The notes below the pieces were generated by a model. It worked only from the letters and a program-made list of their open reading frames with translations, did no database searches and was not told the DNA's origin. The translations under genes and the position numbers were made by a program. This document shows positions 11,362-46,344 of a DNA stretch of 57,869 nucleotides, piece after piece; the stretch's first letter is position 1, and every line of letters starts with the position of its first letter. The stretch comes from a virus: positions 1 through 57,869 of the IMG/VR virus record IMGVR_UViG_3300008448_000091. The stretch is one strand, 5' to 3'.

Positions 11362-11541
11362 TTATCTTTGTGAAAGTCTCTGTTGTTCTTCTTTTAAGTA
11401 ATCTTTCAGCATATCGACGTATAAATCTCGTTCGTAGGGGTAGAGATTCTCAAGCTCAGTTAATGAATATTTATGATGCTGAACCATACTAAACAGTAAT
11501 GTGTAGTAATTGGTTATTGAATTATGGCTCAGCCCAATGTA
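11362..11541 (-). CDS. -1 frameshift extension of gp26 (gp51/T-like segment)
   Basis: The apparent gap after gp26 is open in the -1 frame. On the minus strand a T TTT TTT slippery run (11547-11541), in phase with gp26 codons GAT TTT TTT, lets ribosomes slip and continue with 59 residues beginning YIGLSHNSITNYYTLLF and containing SLTELENLYPYERDLYVDML before TAA. The fusion would be about 292 residues. The extension resembles the T part of tail-assembly chaperone pairs and T4 gp51-like sequences, with the P-x-ERD pattern. No good independent start exists; an internal ATG would give only 41 residues without a ribosome binding site. Confidence 0.8.
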   Translation of the reverse strand, partial: YIGLSHNSITNYYTLLFSMVQHHKYSLTELENLYPYERDLYVDMLKDYLKEEQQRLSQR

Positions 11542-12239
11542 AAAAAATCTGTCAATGTTTTAAGAACAATCTTGACTTCCTTACCATTTGAATTAGTGTA
11601 ACCAATTGTGTGTTCAACTCGCGGCATTGCTTCGATGAATTGTTGAATAGATTGATATGTATTAACATCAAGCGTATCAACAAAGTCTTGCACTTCTTGA
11701 CGGGTAAATTCGCTAGCATTGTACATGGTGCCGTCATGTTCAATTTTATCAAGACATGCTTCCATAATTGCAAAGTTAAAGTCAACAATATCGCTAATCC
11801 CATCCATTTCGTTCATAATACTGATCTCGGGATATTTCAACACGATAGAAGACGTTGGACCGACTGTAATTACGTTTGAAACAGGTGCACTGCGTACCAC
11901 TTCCACCTCATCGAGGTTTACTTGTACATCGTAGATTTTACCGTCTTCGTTGTCTTTGTACGAAAGATTAATAATATTCTGAACCGACTTTGCTCGTAAC
12001 TTAATAAAGAAGTATTCAAGATCAAACGTTGTGAACTTTTCAACATCAACAGATGGATCCGTTATACAACTAGCAATGACTTGTTTAATAGCTCTTACTA
12101 CATCTGCCTGCTCGCCGCTAGATTGGGCAATAAGTAGTATCTTTTCTTCTTTAACAAGAAAAGGTCTAAACGTAACTGTCTGTTGATTGGACGGTAGCAC
12201 CAACGAGAAGGTTGGATGTGATAATAATGGTAAACCCAT
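11529..12239 (-). CDS. 26: Baseplate hub assembly protein gp26-like
   Basis: The 236-residue protein matches the T4 gp26 baseplate family: it starts MGLPLLSHPTFSLVLPS, followed by VTFRPFLVKEEKILLIA and the helical FEYFFIKLRAKS-type segment near 72-85. It is slightly longer than T4 gp26 (208). It is needed for assembling the baseplate hub. The last codons (GAT TTT TTT ACA TTG GGC TGA) contain a slippery run, and the -1 frame continues into a conserved extension. Upstream lies the gp54-like gene in the same orientation. Confidence 0.85.
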   Translation of the reverse strand: MGLPLLSHPTFSLVLPSNQQTVTFRPFLVKEEKILLIAQSSGEQADVVRAIKQVIASCITDPSVDVEKFTTFDLEYFFIKLRAKSVQNIINLSYKDNEDGKIYDVQVNLDEVEVVRSAPVSNVITVGPTSSIVLKYPEISIMNEMDGISDIVDFNFAIMEACLDKIEHDGTMYNASEFTRQEVQDFVDTLDVNTYQSIQQFIEAMPRVEHTIGYTNSNGKEVKIVLKTLTDFFTLG

Positions 12240-35912: not shown

Positions 35913-38900
35913 ATGGCTGGAAGACCACTCAAAGCGCTATATGAAAACAGATCAATCACATTTGACCCACAGACAAGCGTTTCAACAACAACAATAACGG
36001 TTACAAATAACAACCTTTCGGTTGATGATATTGTTGTATATAAAGTTCCCACTGGCGGGACATCAATTACAAATCTTGTAAACGGTGGCGTTTACTATGT
36101 TGTTGCTAAACCGACAGCAGGTTCGTTTAGCATCTCTTCTACAAAAAGCGGAACAGCAATTAACATGGGAACGTTTGGTTCCGCTGGCCAGACACATACT
36201 TTCACTACTGGTTTTAGTGGTGTTAAGGAAATGACGGATAATGAGATCTTAGGATGGTTTACTCCAACAGTTCTTAGTATGTTGCTTGGTGATGTTGGTG
36301 CATTGTATGGTGTAGTTGGTGATCATGCTTTTTATCTTAACATGGCACTGGGATCCGCATCTCCTATCACAAACGAAACAATTCGTACATACTGGTATGA
36401 AAAACATAGAAGCAGTACAGTAGGTACACATCCATATGGTTCTGATGATGATAGGTTATACAAACTTATTCAAAAAGAAGCTAATTATGGTGCTGGTGTT
36501 GCTCTTACCACAAACACAAGATATTATAAACCTGTAACTTATAGTTACGATAGTGGAACAGGGACGACGCAGATTACAGCAATGACAAGTCAGCAGTTGT
36601 ATGATTCGCTGATTCGTGTTACTGTTAATTCTGTGATTACTGGTGGTCGTAGTTCGTACTTTGTTGGTCAATCAGCACCAGGCACTGGTACGTGGGTAGA
36701 GGTTACTTCTTTCGATGACAGGTATTGGGCAAGTGGCGGCGCGCTCACTACCACGACTTTTAAACTGTGGAGAAGAACGGATAGTAATATTGCCGTTACC
36801 AATGTTCGTCCTCTTGTTACGGGAGTAACAGCTGTATCAACGAATCCCGGCGATTTGTTTGAAATGACAGAAAGCCTGATTACAGGTGATGAGTATAGTG
36901 GTCTTGGTTACCATTATTTGGTTAGTGAATATATTCGTACAACTGGCATTGGCAAGTATCAGTTCTCAATAACAACACCAACTGATCCAGGTACGTGGCT
37001 AGCACGTGGTCAGTTTGTCGATAATGTTAATGATGTCACTGATCAGTCATATGGTCAAGCGTTTACGACTAATTATACTACTGTTTATACGACGCAGTAT
37101 GCGTCCGCGTATACAATTGCACCTGTGTACAATATAGTCTACACTGGTGGTGAGCCTTCTTATGCGACTGTATATACATTGGTATATGGAAATCCATTCA
37201 CTAAAACATACTCCGGTGTTGCTCTTTACACGGGAGCTGAGTCAGGTGTCGTATACTCTCAATCTGTATATGCTGGATATACTGCTGCCTCAGTAGGTTT
37301 GTTCACCGCCACTGGCTCATATACTAGATTCGGTGTTGTATATGGTGCAGGTCAGTATACCAACTTTTTCACTGCTGGTGTACAATATACGGTTTTGGTA
37401 AACCAGGCATATGGTGGGCTTATTTGGAGTCTGGGACCAGGTGGTGAGGGAGACCCAAACTATCAGGCTTATTACACGGGCCCCGCATATAACATATTTT
37501 TTGGGGCTGGAGCAGTATATACAAGTATATACATCAGTCCCTTCACAGGTGGTCTTGTTGCTTACACCGGAGTAGGTCAAGGTGGTGGTCCAGCTATAGG
37601 ATATGCTCAAGCTGCAGTGTGGGTTGGTAATGTAGTAATTGGTAATGGGGTGTATACAAACGAAGATCCTTTGAATAATACGAGCTATTCACGATATGGT
37701 ATGGGATCATATGCAGACTTTATATTTGGTTATAACCAAATTGGTTACACAGGTGTAAGCGGTAGTTTTATACCGCCAGGTGATACCTCTGGAACCGCAT
37801 ACTACACTAGACGGAGTTCTTATACATCCGCAACAAACGGGATAACGTCAGCATTTACCTCGACAGCAATATATACAGGCGCATATACTCGTACCTATAC
37901 TCCTAATATTGCCATTTCCAATTACGGTGGCCAGCCTGACATTATTAATATGTTTACGAGAGTGTGGTCGAACGCGTTGCAGACATATACAGGTAATGTA
38001 TTCTCAGCTTCATTCTTAGGACCCGTGACGTATGGTGCTGGTGCTTACACGGCAATTGCACTTAATAATTCTTCATCATGGACGGGTAGCCCAACAACAT
38101 TCCTTGCTGCTGTGTATGCAGGATATACTCTTTTAGATACAAGAACATTCGCCTCGTTAAATTATTATACTAACCGGTTTACCGGCTTTTATGGAGGACC
38201 ATCATATACAGGGGTTGATGCGGTATCGTATAATATAATTGGAAATAGACAATCGTTTACAGGGGGAATTTTTGGTGGTTATACAGCTAATGCTATATTG
38301 AATGGATCAGGTATATTTTTCGCTGGTGTTTATGGTGGATATACGAGGACAAGTTTTCCGTTTACCGGATCGTATACCGGTACAGGCGCAGCGTTTTATG
38401 GCTACCCAGTATATTATACTTTAACAGGTCCAAACGCGTATGTTGGAACATACAACTCCAATGTATACACAAGTATATTCTTTACAAGAGTATTTGGATA
38501 TACCAGAGTATTTACAGACATTGATGGCGCGTCCTATAGTAAGGTATACACCGGGAATGAAGGGATTATTGCTGCTATATCATTAGATGCACATGGTGCC
38601 ACAGCCTACGCACAAACTTATGCAGACAGTCCTGGTAGTTTTGTGCGTTCATCGTGGACTAGTGGAGCAGTATACACAGTATCATATGGAGAGATACGAA
38701 CTGTTCAATATGCTGCAGCGCCACTGTATACAGCAAGTTACGGTGGTATTGTTAATGGTCCTGTCACGACAGCATTTTACACAACAAACGTACTGAGATA
38801 TACAAACGACTCATACATATATTTTGCTAATCCAGCATCACCTTCATATAGTACATTACTAGTGTATGGCCGTTACGCATATACGCTAAGCGATGGTACG

Positions 38901-39518
38901 TATGTTGTATTTGTTGGTAATTATACAAATAGGGTATCATTTGCTCCTGCTACAGTATCTTTTACTAAAACACAAATACAATTCACACGCAACTACACAC
39001 CTACCGATTTTGATAAGTTGGCAGCGACGGGTGCAATTAGTATATACACTAGTTTTAAGAATGATGGATCGGTTGGTCAGTATAATCGGTTCTTCTCATC
39101 GTCTTTTGTAAACACATACACACGAAATTATACACGTACATATACACGTGTGTACACATCATCGTATACAACACTTTTATATTATACACAGAATTACACT
39201 AACTCATTCACAAGAGCATATACTACACAATATACAGGTGCGTTTACATCACCGACTGTCCAGGCTCCGACTGTATATACACACCCAGATACAGTTGCAT
39301 ATACCCGTACGGTTGTACCATACACAAACGCAGGCGTAGTGTTTACAGATGGTAGTGGATCGATCTACACAACATCAATTGTTTATACAGAAGGTAACAT
39401 AGCATATACTGGTTCTTCGGGAACGTATATTGGACCTGCGATCTACACAGCAGCGGTATCAGGATACACGGGTGGATCAGCGACCTATATATGGACACTA
39501 TGGGTAAGAACAGCGTAA
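35913..39518 (+). CDS. Giant Tyr-rich repeat tail protein 1
   Basis: The 1201-residue protein starts with a beta module (LSVDDIVVYKVPTGGTS, GGVYYVVAKPTAGSF) related to a module in gp7. It is followed by domains with the pattern M-x-D-x-x-I ... G-x-Y ... P-x-x-x-G-T-W at about 110-160, 220-270 and 325-375. From about residue 385 to the end it is dominated by Tyr-Thr-Gly motifs (YTxxYT, FTGxYTG), less regular than in the next gene. The C-terminus is WTLWVRTA, shared with the downstream paralogue. No enzyme motif was seen. Likely a distal fibre or adhesin. Confidence 0.65.
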   Translation: MAGRPLKALYENRSITFDPQTSVSTTTITVTNNNLSVDDIVVYKVPTGGTSITNLVNGGVYYVVAKPTAGSFSISSTKSGTAINMGTFGSAGQTHTFTTGFSGVKEMTDNEILGWFTPTVLSMLLGDVGALYGVVGDHAFYLNMALGSASPITNETIRTYWYEKHRSSTVGTHPYGSDDDRLYKLIQKEANYGAGVALTTNTRYYKPVTYSYDSGTGTTQITAMTSQQLYDSLIRVTVNSVITGGRSSYFVGQSAPGTGTWVEVTSFDDRYWASGGALTTTTFKLWRRTDSNIAVTNVRPLVTGVTAVSTNPGDLFEMTESLITGDEYSGLGYHYLVSEYIRTTGIGKYQFSITTPTDPGTWLARGQFVDNVNDVTDQSYGQAFTTNYTTVYTTQYASAYTIAPVYNIVYTGGEPSYATVYTLVYGNPFTKTYSGVALYTGAESGVVYSQSVYAGYTAASVGLFTATGSYTRFGVVYGAGQYTNFFTAGVQYTVLVNQAYGGLIWSLGPGGEGDPNYQAYYTGPAYNIFFGAGAVYTSIYISPFTGGLVAYTGVGQGGGPAIGYAQAAVWVGNVVIGNGVYTNEDPLNNTSYSRYGMGSYADFIFGYNQIGYTGVSGSFIPPGDTSGTAYYTRRSSYTSATNGITSAFTSTAIYTGAYTRTYTPNIAISNYGGQPDIINMFTRVWSNALQTYTGNVFSASFLGPVTYGAGAYTAIALNNSSSWTGSPTTFLAAVYAGYTLLDTRTFASLNYYTNRFTGFYGGPSYTGVDAVSYNIIGNRQSFTGGIFGGYTANAILNGSGIFFAGVYGGYTRTSFPFTGSYTGTGAAFYGYPVYYTLTGPNAYVGTYNSNVYTSIFFTRVFGYTRVFTDIDGASYSKVYTGNEGIIAAISLDAHGATAYAQTYADSPGSFVRSSWTSGAVYTVSYGEIRTVQYAAAPLYTASYGGIVNGPVTTAFYTTNVLRYTNDSYIYFANPASPSYSTLLVYGRYAYTLSDGTYVVFVGNYTNRVSFAPATVSFTKTQIQFTRNYTPTDFDKLAATGAISIYTSFKNDGSVGQYNRFFSSSFVNTYTRNYTRTYTRVYTSSYTTLLYYTQNYTNSFTRAYTTQYTGAFTSPTVQAPTVYTHPDTVAYTRTVVPYTNAGVVFTDGSGSIYTTSIVYTEGNIAYTGSSGTYIGPAIYTAAVSGYTGGSATYIWTLWVRTA

Positions 39519-39537: not shown

Positions 39538-42500
39538 ATGTCAGCACCTTTAAAATTCTTTTCAAACACTTCTGTTAAAGCTCTTCGTGAAATGTCTGAT
39601 ACAGACATCAACGATTATATCTCTATACGAATTGGAGAAGACTTTGCTGCGACTGAAGGCGTCGGGTCCGTTGCAATCGGATCAATGACCAATGGTACAT
39701 CTATTGGTACATGGACAGACACATTCCGTAATGATGCAATCGGTGCACACCCTGTTGATGCAGCAAACGTTACTTCAACAACTACAACAGTTTACCAAAA
39801 TATATCTAACGGTGCAATAACCGGTACACCCACTCGTCCTATTCAATGGAATAGTGCTTTGAGTGGTGTTCAACAAATGCCTGACAATGCAATTGATACG
39901 AACATCATTGCAAAAGTTGCATCATATATGGTCAACGGTGGGACGGGCAGTTATGTACTACAGCCTACTGCTCCTGCTTCCGGAACATGGGCAAATAGAG
40001 GAACGCTGACCAATACGATTACTCCAGGTACAACTGCAAACACATATCTGTGGCAGAAGACTGCAGAGACAGTAACAAACACCACACGTCCTATTAAATG
40101 GGGTGCTAGTTTAAATGAAATGACTGATGTTGAAATCAAGTCACTAACATTCAAGCTTCGTAACTACATCGTTAATAACGGAATTGGTAAGTATAAATTA
40201 TCTGCATCAACTCCTGTAGATCCTGGAACGTGGGTTCAGGCTGGTAGTGGATTTGATGATACAAGACAAGCAACATCAAGTCCTGGATATAATCAGTCGT
40301 TTTCGGGTGCATATAACCAGCCGTTTACACAAGTATACTCTGGTTCGTTTACTGGTGCATACACAATTCCGTATACAAATTCTTTTACTGGTGCATTCAC
40401 TGGATCGTATACCGGCGCTTACAATCAAGCGTATACACAAAATTACACTGGTGTATATAACCAAGTCTACACGACATTGTACACCGGTGCATATACACAA
40501 GCATATACTCAAACGTATACCGGCGCATTTACTGGAAGCTACACTCAGACGTACACCGGTGCGTTTGTTGGTGCATATAACCAAACATTCCTTGGCGTAT
40601 ATAACCGCGCATATACATTCCCATACACAGGTGCGTTTACTGGTAGCTACACAGGTGCGTTTACTGGTTTATATGCTGGTGCGTACAACCAAGCATTTGC
40701 TGGTGCTTATAACCAAGCATTTGCTGGTGCTTATAATCAAGCGTTTGCGGGTTTTTATAATACAGCCTACACGTTCCCATACACGGGTGGCTTCACTGGA
40801 TCATACACGGGTGCGTTTACTGGTCTATATGCTGGCGCGTACAACCAAGCATTTGCTGGATTTTATAATACAGCCTATACGTTCCCATACACAGGAGCAT
40901 TTACTGGTAGCTATACTGGTGCATTTACAGGTGCATATGTAGGTGCATATAACCAAGCATTTGCTGGGTTTTATAATACAGCCTACACGTTTCCGTATAC
41001 AGGTGCGTTTACTGGAGCCTATAATAATTTCTTTGCGCAAACGTTTCAAGGCGCATCGTATATACAGTTTTATACACTCCAATTTACAGGTCTAGCTGCG
41101 TATGGACCACTATACACGGGACCAGCGGTATATAACAGAAACTACACACAAATATATACAACCCAACTTGGATATCAAGTAACTGGTGGGGGAACCTTTG
41201 GAGTAAATATTTTTATTGGTGCATGGACGAGTACATATTCATTAATTATTGCAACATATACGTCCGTGTATACTTCTAATGTTGTTTACACCCAGGTATC
41301 TAATCCTGTATACACACTTACTATTTCTACTAGCTATAACAGTAACTGGTCAGGACTCCAGTACTGGTCAGGAATTCAACCACAAGCATTTTGGTCAAGC
41401 GTCTTTACGGGTGCGTATTTTTATCAAGGGTATGGAACCCCCAACTCTGCAACTTACGGGAATTTCTTTGTTCAACCTCAGGGCAGTGCTGGCTTCACGC
41501 GAATCGTAACTTTCGGAACTTCCTGGACAAGCGCAGTTAGTACGTCATACACACGTACTATTACATCAACATACACACGCACCTTATCGTATGCTGGTAC
41601 TTTTAATCAAATAGGCGTATTCACTGTTGTGTATGCTGGATATTATACACGTACGTTCACAGGTCCAGCGTTGTATGCACGTGCATTCTCAGGAATAGTT
41701 ATATCACCCAATGCTCAAACATACTCACGTGTATTTACAGGGCCAAGTGAATTTGTGAGATTCTTTACAAGAAACTGGACATCTTCCTGGTCAGGGAATT
41801 TCACAGGAGCGTTTGCGGGAGCGTATAATCAGGTATTCAATCAAGCATATACGCGGGCGTTCACAGGATCGTATACATTCCCTTATACAGGAACATATGT
41901 TGGTGCCTACAATCAAGCGTTTGCTGGAACGTTTAATACTGCGTTTAATCGAGGATTCACAAGAGCGTTTACGGGATCGTACACCTTTCCGTACACTGGA
42001 ACGTATGCAGGATCTTATCAACAAGCATTTGCTGGTACTTTTAACACTGCGTTCAATTTAGGATATACGAGAGCGTTTACAGGATCATACACGTTCCCAT
42101 ACACCGGCACCTATACATTTCCTTATACAGGAACATATACTTTCCCATACACTGGAACATATGCAGGAGCTTATCAGCAAGCGTTTGCTGGAACGTTCCA
42201 GCAGGTGTTTAATAACCAATATACGTTTCCATATACTGGTGGGTACACACAAGCCTACACAGGAACATATACAGGCGCGTTTAATCAAGCATTTGTTGGA
42301 TCTTATCAACAAGTATTTACGAGAGCGTACACGTTTCCATACACTGGGACATACGCTACTGGATATACAACACCCTACACAGGATTCTATGCTCAGAATT
42401 ATACAACCACTTACACTGGTAGTTATGTTGGTAGCTACCAGAACGTATTTACAGGTCAGTTTACAAGAGCGTATACGGGAACGTTTGCTAACATTTTTAC

Positions 42501-42615
42501 GAGACTATATACCGGTATATTCACAGGTGCGTACACGGGAATATTTACAGGGTTGACCATTGACGCGTCAACGGAGACAATAGCATCTACTAAACTATGG
42601 GTGAGAACAGCATGA
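39538..42615 (+). CDS. Giant period-4 aromatic repeat tail protein 2
   Basis: The 1025-residue protein has an N-terminal domain (1-110), two copies of a roughly 75-residue domain with M-x-D ... Y-x-x-N-x-G-x-G-x-Y ... GTW (about 110-160 and 195-240), then some 750 residues in which Tyr or Phe recurs every fourth residue, e.g. YTGAYNQAYTQNYTGVYNQV. Two blocks show exact 36-residue (108-bp) superunits. A less regular stretch lies between them (about 505-750). The C-terminus KLWVRTA is shared with protein 1. The period-4 aromatic ladder suggests a fibrous beta-type shaft or adhesin; function is inferred from position only. Confidence 0.65.
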   Translation: MSAPLKFFSNTSVKALREMSDTDINDYISIRIGEDFAATEGVGSVAIGSMTNGTSIGTWTDTFRNDAIGAHPVDAANVTSTTTTVYQNISNGAITGTPTRPIQWNSALSGVQQMPDNAIDTNIIAKVASYMVNGGTGSYVLQPTAPASGTWANRGTLTNTITPGTTANTYLWQKTAETVTNTTRPIKWGASLNEMTDVEIKSLTFKLRNYIVNNGIGKYKLSASTPVDPGTWVQAGSGFDDTRQATSSPGYNQSFSGAYNQPFTQVYSGSFTGAYTIPYTNSFTGAFTGSYTGAYNQAYTQNYTGVYNQVYTTLYTGAYTQAYTQTYTGAFTGSYTQTYTGAFVGAYNQTFLGVYNRAYTFPYTGAFTGSYTGAFTGLYAGAYNQAFAGAYNQAFAGAYNQAFAGFYNTAYTFPYTGGFTGSYTGAFTGLYAGAYNQAFAGFYNTAYTFPYTGAFTGSYTGAFTGAYVGAYNQAFAGFYNTAYTFPYTGAFTGAYNNFFAQTFQGASYIQFYTLQFTGLAAYGPLYTGPAVYNRNYTQIYTTQLGYQVTGGGTFGVNIFIGAWTSTYSLIIATYTSVYTSNVVYTQVSNPVYTLTISTSYNSNWSGLQYWSGIQPQAFWSSVFTGAYFYQGYGTPNSATYGNFFVQPQGSAGFTRIVTFGTSWTSAVSTSYTRTITSTYTRTLSYAGTFNQIGVFTVVYAGYYTRTFTGPALYARAFSGIVISPNAQTYSRVFTGPSEFVRFFTRNWTSSWSGNFTGAFAGAYNQVFNQAYTRAFTGSYTFPYTGTYVGAYNQAFAGTFNTAFNRGFTRAFTGSYTFPYTGTYAGSYQQAFAGTFNTAFNLGYTRAFTGSYTFPYTGTYTFPYTGTYTFPYTGTYAGAYQQAFAGTFQQVFNNQYTFPYTGGYTQAYTGTYTGAFNQAFVGSYQQVFTRAYTFPYTGTYATGYTTPYTGFYAQNYTTTYTGSYVGSYQNVFTGQFTRAYTGTFANIFTRLYTGIFTGAYTGIFTGLTIDASTETIASTKLWVRTA
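40753..41028 (+). repeat. 108-bp tandem coding repeat, block 1
   Basis: Units start at 40753, 40861 and 40969 (third partial). Each begins FYNTAYTFPYTG and continues with FTGSYTGAFTG and GAYNQAFAG. Protein identity is near complete while many third codon positions differ. Confidence 0.92.
41857..42180 (+). repeat. 108-bp tandem coding repeat, block 2
   Basis: Units start at 41857, 41965 and 42073, each beginning AFTGSYTFPYTGTY and continuing GAYNQAFAGTFNTAFN. In the third unit an 8-residue piece (TFPYTGTY, 24 bp) is repeated three times. Confidence 0.92.
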
Positions 42616-43073
42616 AGCGTACTATCAAAAATCCGCATTGGACAAACAATGCAAGGACAATTTTATCAGCAGAATTTCATTATGAGGATGGTCGTGTTAC
42701 AACAGCTACCATTTCTGATACGGATGTTGGGAATCCTGATCTTAAAGAAATTCTTGAAACTTTTACTACTGAAGAGCTTGAAAAAAATACGCAAAACGTA
42801 ATTAGAAAAATTCAAGGCGAGCGTGAGAGACAAGCTATTCTCGAAGAAACAAAAGCTGAGCGTAAAAAACAAGAAGATTTGTTTGCTGTCAAAATGAAGT
42901 CTTTTGAGATTGAGGCTATTAAGAATTCTACCAATAGATCTCTCAAGTCAAAGATCCGTAGAGCAAAGAGTGATTTGGAAGTAATGGCTTATACGGTAGC
43001 TCTAATCCTTGAAGAAGATAAAAACCCCTCAGTAGTAACTACCCAAGAAACAATAGATACACAGACTGCTTAA
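42612..43073 (+). CDS. Small charged, helical protein after the repeat fibre
   Basis: The 153-residue protein starts at the ATG overlapping the upstream stop (ATGA). The N-terminal half reads like a small beta domain (ARTILSAEFHYEDGRVTTAT), the rest is a long Glu/Lys/Arg-rich helix (about 60-130, GERERQAILEETKAERKKQE). Its position directly behind a giant fibre gene suggests a fibre chaperone or connector, by analogy with T4 gp38/gp57A. No similarity to those proteins is visible. Confidence 0.6.
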   Translation: MKRTIKNPHWTNNARTILSAEFHYEDGRVTTATISDTDVGNPDLKEILETFTTEELEKNTQNVIRKIQGERERQAILEETKAERKKQEDLFAVKMKSFEIEAIKNSTNRSLKSKIRRAKSDLEVMAYTVALILEEDKNPSVVTTQETIDTQTA

Positions 43074-43074
43074 T

Positions 43075-43776
43075 ATGATTCCTGATAATGGTTTTTTAAT
43101 TGTTGCTTCAGTTTTGGAAGAGTATGTTCGTAGTGCTTCGTTTTGTGCTGGTACTATAAAAGACAATTATCCCGAGGCACATATTACTCTTGTTGTGCCT
43201 CCTAAGCTACGACACTTTGCTGATACAACATGCTTTGATTTGATTATATCTGATGAAGATGTTCCCAATGATGCTCGTACAAAACTTTATGGTCTCTCGC
43301 GTACTCCATATAAAAATTTAACAGCATACGTTGATGCTGATATGGAATGTTGGCATTCCGATGTTGCCACTATTTGGGATCAAATGCCCGAAGATGCTGA
43401 TATGTTGATTACACGAATTAGACCGTACAACGGAAAGATACACAAGTGGCCAACAGGTGAAATGTTATATCATGGTGGATTCTTCGTTTATCGAAACACC
43501 CCATTTATGATTGACTTCATGCATCAATGGTATTCCGACTATAGAAAGCAGAAGAATGAACCGTGGCCATATCCAGACCACGAGATCCCAATTGATTTAC
43601 GTCCGTGGGATCAATTTACATTATGGAAGATGATGAATATTGACAAGTTGCCAATTAACGTGCAGGTGTTTAAAGATGATGCGCGATGGAATTTTGTTAA
43701 CGGATATTATCCGACAGAAACAAAAAGTCCAATTATTTTTTGGCACCATACAATACCATCAAGAAGAGGGATGTAA
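43075..43776 (+). CDS. Glycosyltransferase-like protein (GT-A fold)
   Basis: The 233-residue product has the nucleotide-sugar binding pattern of GT-A enzymes: YKNLTAYVDADMECWHSD (about 77-94) with a DAD metal-binding motif, EMLYHGGFFVYRN (near 129-141) and a late DDARWNFVN segment followed by IIFWHHTIPS. This resembles GT8-like families of phages and bacteria. The donor and acceptor are unknown. The TAATG overlap couples it to the oxygenase-like gene, so the two may modify the same target, such as fibre proteins or cell-surface glycans. Confidence 0.65.
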   Translation: MIPDNGFLIVASVLEEYVRSASFCAGTIKDNYPEAHITLVVPPKLRHFADTTCFDLIISDEDVPNDARTKLYGLSRTPYKNLTAYVDADMECWHSDVATIWDQMPEDADMLITRIRPYNGKIHKWPTGEMLYHGGFFVYRNTPFMIDFMHQWYSDYRKQKNEPWPYPDHEIPIDLRPWDQFTLWKMMNIDKLPINVQVFKDDARWNFVNGYYPTETKSPIIFWHHTIPSRRGM

Positions 43777-44417
43777 TGCAAACGGTACAGATAAAAAATA
43801 TTGAATTAAAAGAGATCCTTAATAGGTTTATAACATCTCTTCTCAGTGTTGATCGGTCAAAGTTTCCTTATGGACCTAATGGGAGAGGTCCGGAAGGTGT
43901 TACTATGACGCCTGACTATGCTTGCGGTGAAGAGTATTTAAAATTCATGCAAGCAAAAAAAGATGTCACGGGGTTTCCAGAGTGCACGCTTGGTATTGAT
44001 CTTGGGCAGTGGCAACCACCACAGCCTGAACTCAGAGCAGCGTTGAAGTTACTAGATCAAGAATTAATGACGTGGCAGGGCTCACGTAATAATGCTGTTA
44101 AAATGTTATATCCAAAAGGTGGGTATATGGGATGGCATCATAATGCCAATGCTCCTGGTCTTAATATTCTTTTGTCGTGGTCAAAGGATGGAAAAGGATA
44201 CTTTATGTACCAAGATCCAATTACAAAAGAGATTGTTCGTATGCACGACACTCCGGGCTGGACATGTAAAGTTGGATACTACGGCAAATGGGGCGAGACG
44301 GATAAAATATACTGGCACGGTGCAAATGCAGAGCATGAAGAACGATTTACATTAGGATACATTATTCCTCACAGGGGACTGTGGGAAGACATGATTGCAG
44401 ACATTGAATCAGAATAA
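43776..44417 (+). CDS. 2OG-Fe(II) oxygenase-like protein
   Basis: The 213-residue protein resembles the 2OG-Fe(II) oxygenases of marine T4-like phages: MLYPKGGYMGWHHNANAPGL (about 95-114) includes the H-x-N/D metal motif, LLSWSKDGKGYFMYQDP follows, then GWTCKVGYYG and a distal YWHGANAEHEERFTLGYI with the second His and an Arg suited to bind 2-oxoglutarate. Asn replaces the usual Asp of the HxD motif if H-H-N is the ligand set, so activity should be treated with caution. The ATG at 43776 has a GAAGAGGG ribosome binding site. Confidence 0.7.
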   Translation: MQTVQIKNIELKEILNRFITSLLSVDRSKFPYGPNGRGPEGVTMTPDYACGEEYLKFMQAKKDVTGFPECTLGIDLGQWQPPQPELRAALKLLDQELMTWQGSRNNAVKMLYPKGGYMGWHHNANAPGLNILLSWSKDGKGYFMYQDPITKEIVRMHDTPGWTCKVGYYGKWGETDKIYWHGANAEHEERFTLGYIIPHRGLWEDMIADIESE

Positions 44418-45118
44418 TATTTAAAGCAATCCAAATAGTCCTGATCAGTTGTAAGGCCGTTTAATAATAATACAGGAAATATTCCAAGCAAGGGGGCTAA
44501 CAGCTCCCTTTTGTTTTGCACTTTAATATGGAGCCTCCGATCTACTCCATACAGAAATGAGTGGAAAATTCCTAATGGGAAAGTCTTTACCGCACCGCGA
44601 GACTCCCATACCTTGTGTAGATAAACATCCATGCCTTGGTTATATTTAATACTGTTGTAGTCTACATCTGATATAAACTGATCCCATATAGCATGCACGG
44701 CTGGTTGTCCTGGTATCCATGTAATACAACTGGAATTTAAGTTATGAAGTGTATACTTGTTGGTCACATTACGCCATATTACATTAATAACAGTCACTGC
44801 GTTTTCGTGGTTTATATTACTCAAGAAAGTAATATCAGATTTTATAACCATATCCAAATCAAAAAACATTCTTGGACCTGGGCCAATCATTTGGTCAAAT
44901 TGCTTACTAAATAGAAATAACTTGTTGTGTGTTATTGTTGTTAAGTCGTGATCAATATAATGAACTATCTTAACATCGGAGTGCAAGTTCGTGGTGTTGT
45001 CAGTGTAACAAAAAAACTCAAACGGTGTGTGTATATGCCTCTTACACATCGCGTATAGATTATTAACATAATATGGTTCAAACAAAGTACCCAGTTTAAC
45101 ACAAATAACTTTTAACAT
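44369..45118 (-). CDS. Glycosyltransferase-like protein, minus strand
   Basis: The 249-residue protein starts MLKVICVKLGTLFEPYYVNN and has the GT-A pattern with PRMFFDLDMVIKSD (near 82-95), where DLD is the likely metal motif, and a SCITWIPGQPAVHAIWDQF segment. It is related in type to GT8-like phage proteins. It is the only minus-strand gene in 14-58 kb and overlaps the end of the oxygenase-like gene by 49 nt, which suggests a later insertion or an independent expression unit. No Shine-Dalgarno sequence is obvious. Confidence 0.65.
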   Translation of the reverse strand: MLKVICVKLGTLFEPYYVNNLYAMCKRHIHTPFEFFCYTDNTTNLHSDVKIVHYIDHDLTTITHNKLFLFSKQFDQMIGPGPRMFFDLDMVIKSDITFLSNINHENAVTVINVIWRNVTNKYTLHNLNSSCITWIPGQPAVHAIWDQFISDVDYNSIKYNQGMDVYLHKVWESRGAVKTFPLGIFHSFLYGVDRRLHIKVQNKRELLAPLLGIFPVLLLNGLTTDQDYLDCFKYYSDSMSAIMSSHSPL

Positions 45119-45130
45119 AGGAAAATAAAA

Positions 45131-45763
45131 ATGTATGTAGTTTCAACGGCAAGATCAAATTCGACTGAGTTTTGTTTGAAATATTCTTTCGATAACAACA
45201 AACAGTTTATGGGTGAGTTAACGTATGCTATCAATAATCCCCTTAAACCTGATGCAATTGGTGCACCATTTGTAAATATAAAACAAGAATTTCACGAAAC
45301 AGGTATACAGCCGACATATACGATACCAAACCTCGTCACCAACTGGTCAAACATAAGCGATCCCAATACACTATCGTTAATAAGAGTAGTAGATAATATG
45401 CCTCTTTATGATAATGCTGCCTTTTTGATTACAAGAAAGAACATAAGAGAACAGTTGTTATCTATGGTTAATTATAGACTGAAGGTATTTGTTGGTATCA
45501 CTGGTAGCTCTATTATAACAGTTAACACATTTAATATGATGAATCTTTGCTCAGTATTGATGACACACGTATGTGTTTTACTCCAATACGCAAAGGTATA
45601 TAGCAGAGAGATAACGTGGACAGAAGATTTTTCTACACCGTCTACATTGTACCCATACATTGATGCATGGGAGAATAAAACTGAGTTTTTAATACTTCTC
45701 GATAGACAGCTTGCAAAAATTGACTTTGCTAGCTTTAACAATCAAATTATTATTTCACCATAA
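45131..45763 (+). CDS. Unknown protein, possibly sulfotransferase-like
   Basis: The 210-residue protein begins MYVVSTARSNSTEFCLKY, which recalls the N-terminal P-loop-like PAPS-binding strand of sulfotransferases (T-x-R-S-x-S-T), and later has FLITRKNIREQLLSMVNYRL (about 98-117), which recalls the second PAPS-binding region of such enzymes. Most other landmarks are missing. It follows a TAGGAAA ribosome binding site and its stop overlaps the next start (TAATG). I cannot assign it firmly. Confidence 0.45.
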   Translation: MYVVSTARSNSTEFCLKYSFDNNKQFMGELTYAINNPLKPDAIGAPFVNIKQEFHETGIQPTYTIPNLVTNWSNISDPNTLSLIRVVDNMPLYDNAAFLITRKNIREQLLSMVNYRLKVFVGITGSSIITVNTFNMMNLCSVLMTHVCVLLQYAKVYSREITWTEDFSTPSTLYPYIDAWENKTEFLILLDRQLAKIDFASFNNQIIISP

Positions 45764-46344
45764 TGTATGATCTTCTTCAAAATGTATCAACAGTTTTGAG
45801 GTCATCAAGTTTTCAAACCATTGATTCAATTGCTGATTCGATGAGTCCCACACAGTATAGATCAAAACAGTGGTTAGTATCAACTCTACTAGGTTTGAAC
45901 TTAAACTCAAAACGGATTTTGATCCTCGGTGGGTGGTATGGAACATACCTTGTGCCAATGTTACAACAATTGAATCCTGTTTTAATACATCATACCGATA
46001 AAGACGAAAATACAATTAAGAAAGCAAAGCAGTTGCATCAACATTATAATAATTGTTTATTTGAAGTGTTAGACGCGAATGTTATGCAAAACTTTAGCTT
46101 GCAAACGGATATGGTGATTAACACATCGTGTGAGCATATGAATAATATGGATCAGATTGTTGATGCAAATCCAAATTGTGTATATGTTTTACAGTCATGT
46201 GATAACAAAAATGATCCTGGGCATATCAATATAGTGAATTCATCAGAAGAGCTGGCATTGAAATCAGGTATATCGAGCATTATGTGGCAGGGAACAATGT
46301 CACTGGGTCATAAAAACAGGTTTATGGTTGTTGGGACCAAGTGA
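45763..46344 (+). CDS. Class I methyltransferase-like protein
   Basis: The 193-residue product has a Rossmann-like start: KRILILGGWYGTYLVPML (about 49-66) as motif I, IHHTDKDENTIKKA as the second strand with acidic residues, FEVLDANVMQNF, and DMVINTSCEHMNNM (near 124-137) at the motif IV position. The glycine motif is atypical (GGWYGT). It ends the metabolic cassette and is followed by a late promoter box. The substrate is unknown. Confidence 0.65.
   Translation: MYDLLQNVSTVLRSSSFQTIDSIADSMSPTQYRSKQWLVSTLLGLNLNSKRILILGGWYGTYLVPMLQQLNPVLIHHTDKDENTIKKAKQLHQHYNNCLFEVLDANVMQNFSLQTDMVINTSCEHMNNMDQIVDANPNCVYVLQSCDNKNDPGHINIVNSSEELALKSGISSIMWQGTMSLGHKNRFMVVGTK

Follow-up and report, generated by a model that had tools for sequence, protein, structure and literature searches.

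The usual architecture of a phage fibre is a single-pass homotrimeric shaft. The C-terminal needle of the T4 long tail fibre protein gp37 (D10–D11; PDB 2XGF) is described in PMC6957217: domain D10 (residues 811–881 and 1010–1026) is split by D11, which consists of a stem (882–931 and 960–1009) with a tip (932–959) inserted into it, and F970, a core residue, packs against G921 from another subunit. As 921 + 970 equals 882 + 1009, this aromatic-glycine contact lies on the register of the stem.

The window, i.e. the whole stretch of DNA analysed here, is an IMG/VR virus record of 57,869 bases, with fourteen tRNA genes in its first 3 kb (78–2943). Downstream of baseplate wedge genes, in a locus where the wedge protein encoded upstream matches T4-superfamily phages (Cr30, phiM12 and cyanophages), lies the gene for gC, which is very probably a tail fibre or adhesin of a T4-superfamily myovirus, built from a base domain and a giant β-hairpin with its arms in fixed register. 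The features concerned are:

39538–42615, plus strand: fibre protein gC, 1025 aa, entire open reading frame (ORF list; relatives).
39538–40287, plus strand: base region of gC, residues 1–250 (identity to relatives; model of the short relative L043).
40288–41046, plus strand: N-terminal (outgoing) arm of gC, 64 tetrads, residues 251–503 (continuous ladder; mirror match).
40718–41018, plus strand: 108-nt (9-tetrad) tandem repeats in the outgoing arm (DNA repeats).
41047–41751, plus strand: looser middle of gC, residues 504–738 (broken ladder; putative distal tip).
41752–42546, plus strand: C-terminal (returning) arm of gC, 67 tetrads, residues 739–1003 (continuous ladder; mirror match).
41836–42104, plus strand: 108-nt tandem repeats in the returning arm (DNA repeats; mirror position of the outgoing-arm set).
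42547–42615, plus strand: last 22 residues of gC (ending STETIASTKLWVRTA) plus stop, putative strand closing the base module.
35913–39518, plus strand: paralogous fibre protein gB, 1201 aa, with a weak ladder (ladder count; precedes gC).
42597–43073, plus strand: 158-aa protein, candidate fibre chaperone (position; overlaps the gC stop).

An earlier note on this DNA had described Tyr or Phe at every fourth position of gC, and counting bears this out: 150 aromatic pairs at i and i+4 were observed against 45.2 ± 5.6 in 1000 shuffles (maximum 61), and the autocorrelation it had called for gives a 3.3-fold enrichment at lag 4 and one of about 3-fold at lags 8, 12, 16, 20 and 24. The looser middle that it had also seen occupies residues 504–738, and the strict ladder is made of two continuous runs, 251–503 (64 aromatics) and 739–1003 (67), ∼520 residues in total; long relatives likewise break the ladder between their arms. 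In the pooled tetrads of gC and seven relatives (eight long proteins), the first position (a) is Tyr in 64% and Phe in 35% of cases, the second (b) is Thr, Ser or Ala, the third (c) is Gly in 76%, and the fourth (d) is small or β-branched. Gly at the third position defines the tetrad as much as the aromatic does. Neither the repeat nor the base of gC had a match in Pfam or among PDB sequences, and PHROGs gave only a weak and unnamed one (PHROG 15773), so that the confident match to a described repeat family by which the earlier note would have abandoned its view was found in none of the three; literature searches found no description of a Tyr/Phe tetrad repeat. A DNA-pattern scan of viral contigs for YTG tetrads returned three loci, all unrelated.

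Residues 1–250 of gC consist of repeated EMTD..EI / GTW...LW.RTA modules (43–64% identity to five relatives, with about 50 invariant columns), and throughout the family the N-terminal region holds several GTW...LW.RT modules. In the last of these the tetrads intervene after GTW..AG.FDDTR, and the module continues at ...KLWVRTA, which suggests that the tetrad arms arose by growth of a hairpin within that module. Complete relatives have ∼250 N-terminal residues, then tetrads, then a tail, usually of 22 residues and ending LWVRTA or similar; this 22-residue tail occurs in nearly all relatives, and in an AlphaFold2 (AF2) model of L043 it is predicted as a strand (pLDDT ∼94), consistent with a role in closing the base module. 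Fold searches with the L043 model (Foldseek, VIA) gave no match for the base fold; the matches returned, long pore-forming and other generic hairpins, were set aside (none at E ≤ 0.001, Z at most 4). A single-pass parallel homotrimeric shaft, with the N terminus at the baseplate, the C terminus distal and the repeats as a long shaft, would suit the repeat-rich, Gly/Thr-rich composition of gC, but does not lead one to expect arms of equal length or their mirror covariation, and the tail, which is conserved alongside the N-terminal modules, looks like the half that the last module lacks. We regard that architecture as highly improbable here, and the gC chain probably does not run along the shaft in a single pass.

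Full-protein tblastn misses the repeats through low-complexity filtering, and relatives were found through the downstream gene and an alignment of the N-terminal region; the latter, a search for homologues such as the earlier note had proposed, yielded 129 relatives (80 loci among the matches listed). In uninterrupted members the two arms are equal in length over a range of 4 to 172 units (r = 0.9997, n = 24), usually with N = C+1; the N-/C-arm units are 172/171, 164/163, 128/126, 123/123, 116/115, 106/106, 97/96, 64/67 (gC), 15/14, 12/11, 11/10, 7/6, and so on. This set of 24 was hand-picked for arms with no or almost no interruption (L013 has a single 1-residue slip in its C arm), and L019, L037, L038, L041, L056, L009_B, L010_B, L057, L060 and the Kyanoviridae-type members were left out as interrupted. 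A crude count of first runs in all 43 usable members gives a rank correlation of only 0.57, because interruptions cut first runs short. The interruptions themselves show a tendency to mirror symmetry: 21<6>17<6>6<6>6<26> is the pattern from each end in L057, in the N and C arms alike, and L060, L009_B and L010_B are similar. The longest ladder, with 221 consecutive i+4 aromatics, is the outgoing arm of L017 (L017:7992–13799), a contig that ends inside the returning arm, where there are at least 189 units. At the end of L067 (about 11500–11594) the reading frame closes in ...CLLYTSPSPRD..., a peptide that we take to be typical of sequencing-adapter carry-over, and an assembly artefact is the likely source of this end of the contig.

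If the units of the N arm are counted from the base outward and those of the C arm from the C end inward, unit k of the former agrees in Y/F identity with unit k−1 of the latter (k−2 in L020, where extra units lie near the base). The mirror correlation within single proteins is 0.91 in L014, 0.85 in L018, 0.84 in L015 and L022, 0.81 in L020, 0.79 in L013, 0.68 in L021 and 0.49 in gC, and its peak is the global maximum across all shifts in 8/8, direct-orientation maxima being lower. Pooled over the eight long proteins, 854/952 mirror pairs are identical, compared to ∼54% expected from composition (YY 562, FF 287 and YF 84 among the a-a pairs). Correlations between arms of different proteins are near 0 except in the close pairs L013/L015 and L018/L021, and the eight therefore represent about six independent lineages. 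For gC the decisive test is this phase-aware Y/F comparison, as a whole-residue mirror scan and a Smith-Waterman mirror test were dominated by repeat composition and not decisive: 48/63 units match (permutation p = 1.5e-4), with a match of 0.87 over the first 31 units that fades outward to 0.66 beyond. YTFP units stand at N-arm positions 27, 40, 49 and 58 and at mirrored C-arm positions 28, 39, 48 and 57, those of the tandem repeats (N 40, 49, 58) being one step from their counterparts (C 39, 48, 57); the C arm has extra YTFP units at 19, 35 and 37 (mirrored count). There was no clear mirror signal (weak or absent) in gB or in the distant Kyanoviridae relatives L063, L083, L085 and C48C1. The earlier note had seen the ladder and missed both the mirror symmetry of the arms and the probable split of the base domain.

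An apparent exception, L019, has runs of 98, then 87 and 192. The mirror match to its C arm lies at shift −2 for block 1 and at +96 (= 98−2) for block 2, each the best of all shifts; judged by this register, which resumes exactly, the blocks act as one arm with a domain of 176 residues inserted:

L019:9945–10469: CBM_4_9-like domain within one fibre arm.

The resemblance to CBM_4_9 is subthreshold (E = 0.0036), and matches to PHROG tail proteins are clear (phrog_5939, E = 2e-14).

Could the symmetry have come from tandem or segmental duplication of DNA in a low-complexity, unstructured or adhesive Tyr-rich polymer? Both arms of gC do carry DNA tandem repeats, and in many members the arms show more direct local similarity to each other than shuffled controls do. 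Duplication, however, preserves block order and would give direct, not mirror-image, order, and no simple DNA rearrangement reverses the order while keeping the direction of each tetrad; between the arms, block order is reversed, yet each tetrad keeps its direction. The third codon bases of matched Tyr/Phe agree at 0.45–0.52, against 0.49–0.59 expected (p = 0.20), i.e. only at chance, and the mirror match is therefore not DNA copying. Reversed order and chance-level third bases together place the constraint on the protein, and the register is held across the inserted domain of L019. Duplication of such a polymer thus seems to us barely conceivable as the source of the symmetry. At the level of sequence, these data establish the period, two equal arms, their antiparallel mirror register and selection on the protein; by the same evidence, the matching of the arms is protein-level covariation, like that of an RNA stem.

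The earlier note had proposed a stacked aromatic ladder, possibly in a β-solenoid or a trimeric shaft. The stacked ladder survives in kind, as the aromatics of the two halves covary; the solenoid version is disfavoured because N-arm unit k covaries with C-arm unit k−1, a link that a self-closing coil does not predict. A trimeric form of the shaft is plausible. Beta-helices with 12 residues per turn exist, and the Y/F pattern repeats secondarily every three tetrads (with side peaks ±3 units away), as might be expected if each arm were a β-solenoid of its own (at least three tetrads per turn) whose aromatics stack in a column, two such solenoids lying abreast. Contact between solenoids would use one face only, whereas the mirror match extends to 90% across all pooled units; the dominant coupling is between arms; and AF2 drew extended strands and no coils in L043. 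We hold twin solenoids to be very unlikely.

Returning to arms paired as a hairpin, the couplings between them peak at different registers: +2 for aromatic-Gly/Gln, +4 for aromatic-aromatic, and −2 for the b-b and d-d face, where pairs are size-complementary (Thr opposite Gly, Ser opposite Ala). The registers of the aromatic face and the b/d face thus differ by about six residues. A flat two-stranded ribbon fails to satisfy both; a closed trimer with shear between N-C and C-N′ neighbours might explain them.

Exposure of the aromatic face as a multivalent glycan-binding surface, for which the hairpin would be only a scaffold, was weighed as well. Tyr-rich surfaces often bind sugars, and the CBM_4_9-like arm insert of L019 makes binding along the fibre plausible, although that assignment is subthreshold. 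Against this, Y-Y and F-F matching between arms suggests mutual contact, and the non-Gly residues at position c (Gln, Arg, Ser, Asn) precede mostly Phe and not Tyr, a replacement of Gly beside Phe that suggests a packed environment. An exposed glycan-binding face is therefore unlikely in our judgement.

The monomer structure prediction proposed by the earlier note had a mixed outcome. AF2 of gC (eight sequences) was uninformative (mean pLDDT 33), while for the short relative L043 (353 aa, 17 sequences; mean pLDDT 77) it gave a hairpin at low confidence. In the latter model the base modules and the final strand (343–351) are confident, and the arms are long strands (251–284 and 296–329, pLDDT ∼50) whose strand sum of 580 equals register +2, where aromatic-Gly coupling peaks. 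Paired-strand arms are thus predicted with low confidence.

In the mechanism that we propose, the chain would run out from the small base domain over 64 tetrads (aromatic-T/S-Gly-x; the outgoing arm), turn at a variable tip of ∼235 residues and return as an antiparallel arm of 67 tetrads, the last 22 residues completing the base domain. Tyr or Phe of N-arm unit k would pair with the same residue in C-arm unit k−1 (from the C end), and because this register is fixed, a change of length in one arm needs a match in the other. By analogy with gp37, the working form in the virion would probably be a trimer with six strands around. The middle segment is probably the receptor-binding distal tip, facing the host receptor, as its position, the topology and the gp37 analogy suggest. 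At 3.3 Å per residue an arm would span about 85 nm if the strands are axial, and less if they are tilted.

Assembly might involve the 158-aa protein encoded immediately downstream, a candidate chaperone by its position; its counterpart adjoins the fibre gene downstream in five IMG/VR loci (L008–L012) and in C48C1, and family searches gave no match for it. The first two gene positions after it are conserved in relatives. The genes at 43075–46344 encode a possible nucleotide-sugar transferase (PF03407, E = 0.03; L008 relative PF00535, E = 0.003), a methyltransferase-like protein (PF13649, E = 0.011) and proteins without a family match, and this cluster could serve in fibre modification. The paralogue gB has 50 aromatic pairs at lag 4 (33 ± 4.9 when shuffled); its ladder is degraded, and towards its C end there is a Tyr roughly every 6–7 residues (IYTTSIVYTEGNIAYTGSSGTYIG). 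Its counterparts in L008–L010 are shorter than gB, with regular or near-regular, mirrored arms.

The pairing of strands over hundreds of residues has here been read from sequence alone, in a low-complexity repeat that BLAST masks and AlphaFold2 could not model, and as an example of covariation in a protein it is as clean as that of RNA stems. It describes an up-and-down fibre with an exposed tip and suggests a route by which some phage fibres may change length, through matched insertions in both arms. The mirror test is applicable to other tandem-repeat proteins of unknown fold.

Among described proteins, SWTG_00067 of cyanophage S-RIM2, a virion protein by annotation, shares the four-residue period, with a hydrophobic residue followed by Thr-Gly, and is a precedent for such a period, of which the earlier note had known none among standard fibre repeats. 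Its GNVTGNLTGDVTG tetrads (L093:4414–10152) differ in carrying Val/Leu every fourth residue in place of Tyr/Phe, are shorter, and show no split base or mirror arms; it was rejected as an orthologue of gC, the tblastn hit falling on the Val/Leu tetrads. CDS0201 of phage C48C1 (Kyanoviridae, OQ984149; 3347 aa, ‘hypothetical protein’) has homologous N-terminal domains, a C-terminal LYVRVA strand, Y/F tetrads and the same downstream genes as gC, but differs in having Arg/Ser at many ladder positions and several globular inserts among the tetrads (e.g. L001:17404–18078). The Kyanoviridae-type L063, L069, L081, L083, L085 and L001 keep the four-residue phase with Arg/Ser at many ladder positions (for example YARTRTSTYDGT and STRTSTRT), and no mirror signal was found in them.

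The closest parallel is the gp37 needle, likewise from a T4-superfamily phage. In gp37 the base is split by an inserted stem and the last 17 residues return to it, a construction that the gC family probably repeats; in both, two equal antiparallel arms enclose a tip (putative in gC), the register in the gC family being deduced from sequence; the aromatic-Gly coupling of the gC family corresponds to the F970–G921 packing of gp37. The C-terminal tails, TENTVKNIAFNYIVRLA in gp37 and STETIASTKLWVRTA in gC, are alike but too short to weigh. No homology of the gC-family base to the gp37 C-terminus was detected (probability 0.2% in a profile comparison), and by analogy the gC family would work like the gp37 needle, a likeness of construction and not a demonstrated family membership. 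In place of the iron-binding HxH motifs of gp37 (eight, against none in the eight long relatives, which have 1–3 His each), the gC family has a strict four-residue aromatic/Gly repeat, and its arms, of about 256 and 268 residues in gC, range between 4 and 172 units in length, compared to 50 residues in gp37. Whether a mirror hairpin locked by covariation, with Tyr and Phe layers set singly over hundreds of residues, two face registers, ruler-like arms and growth by paired insertions, forms a fibre class separate from the gp37 needle is, in our view, evenly balanced.
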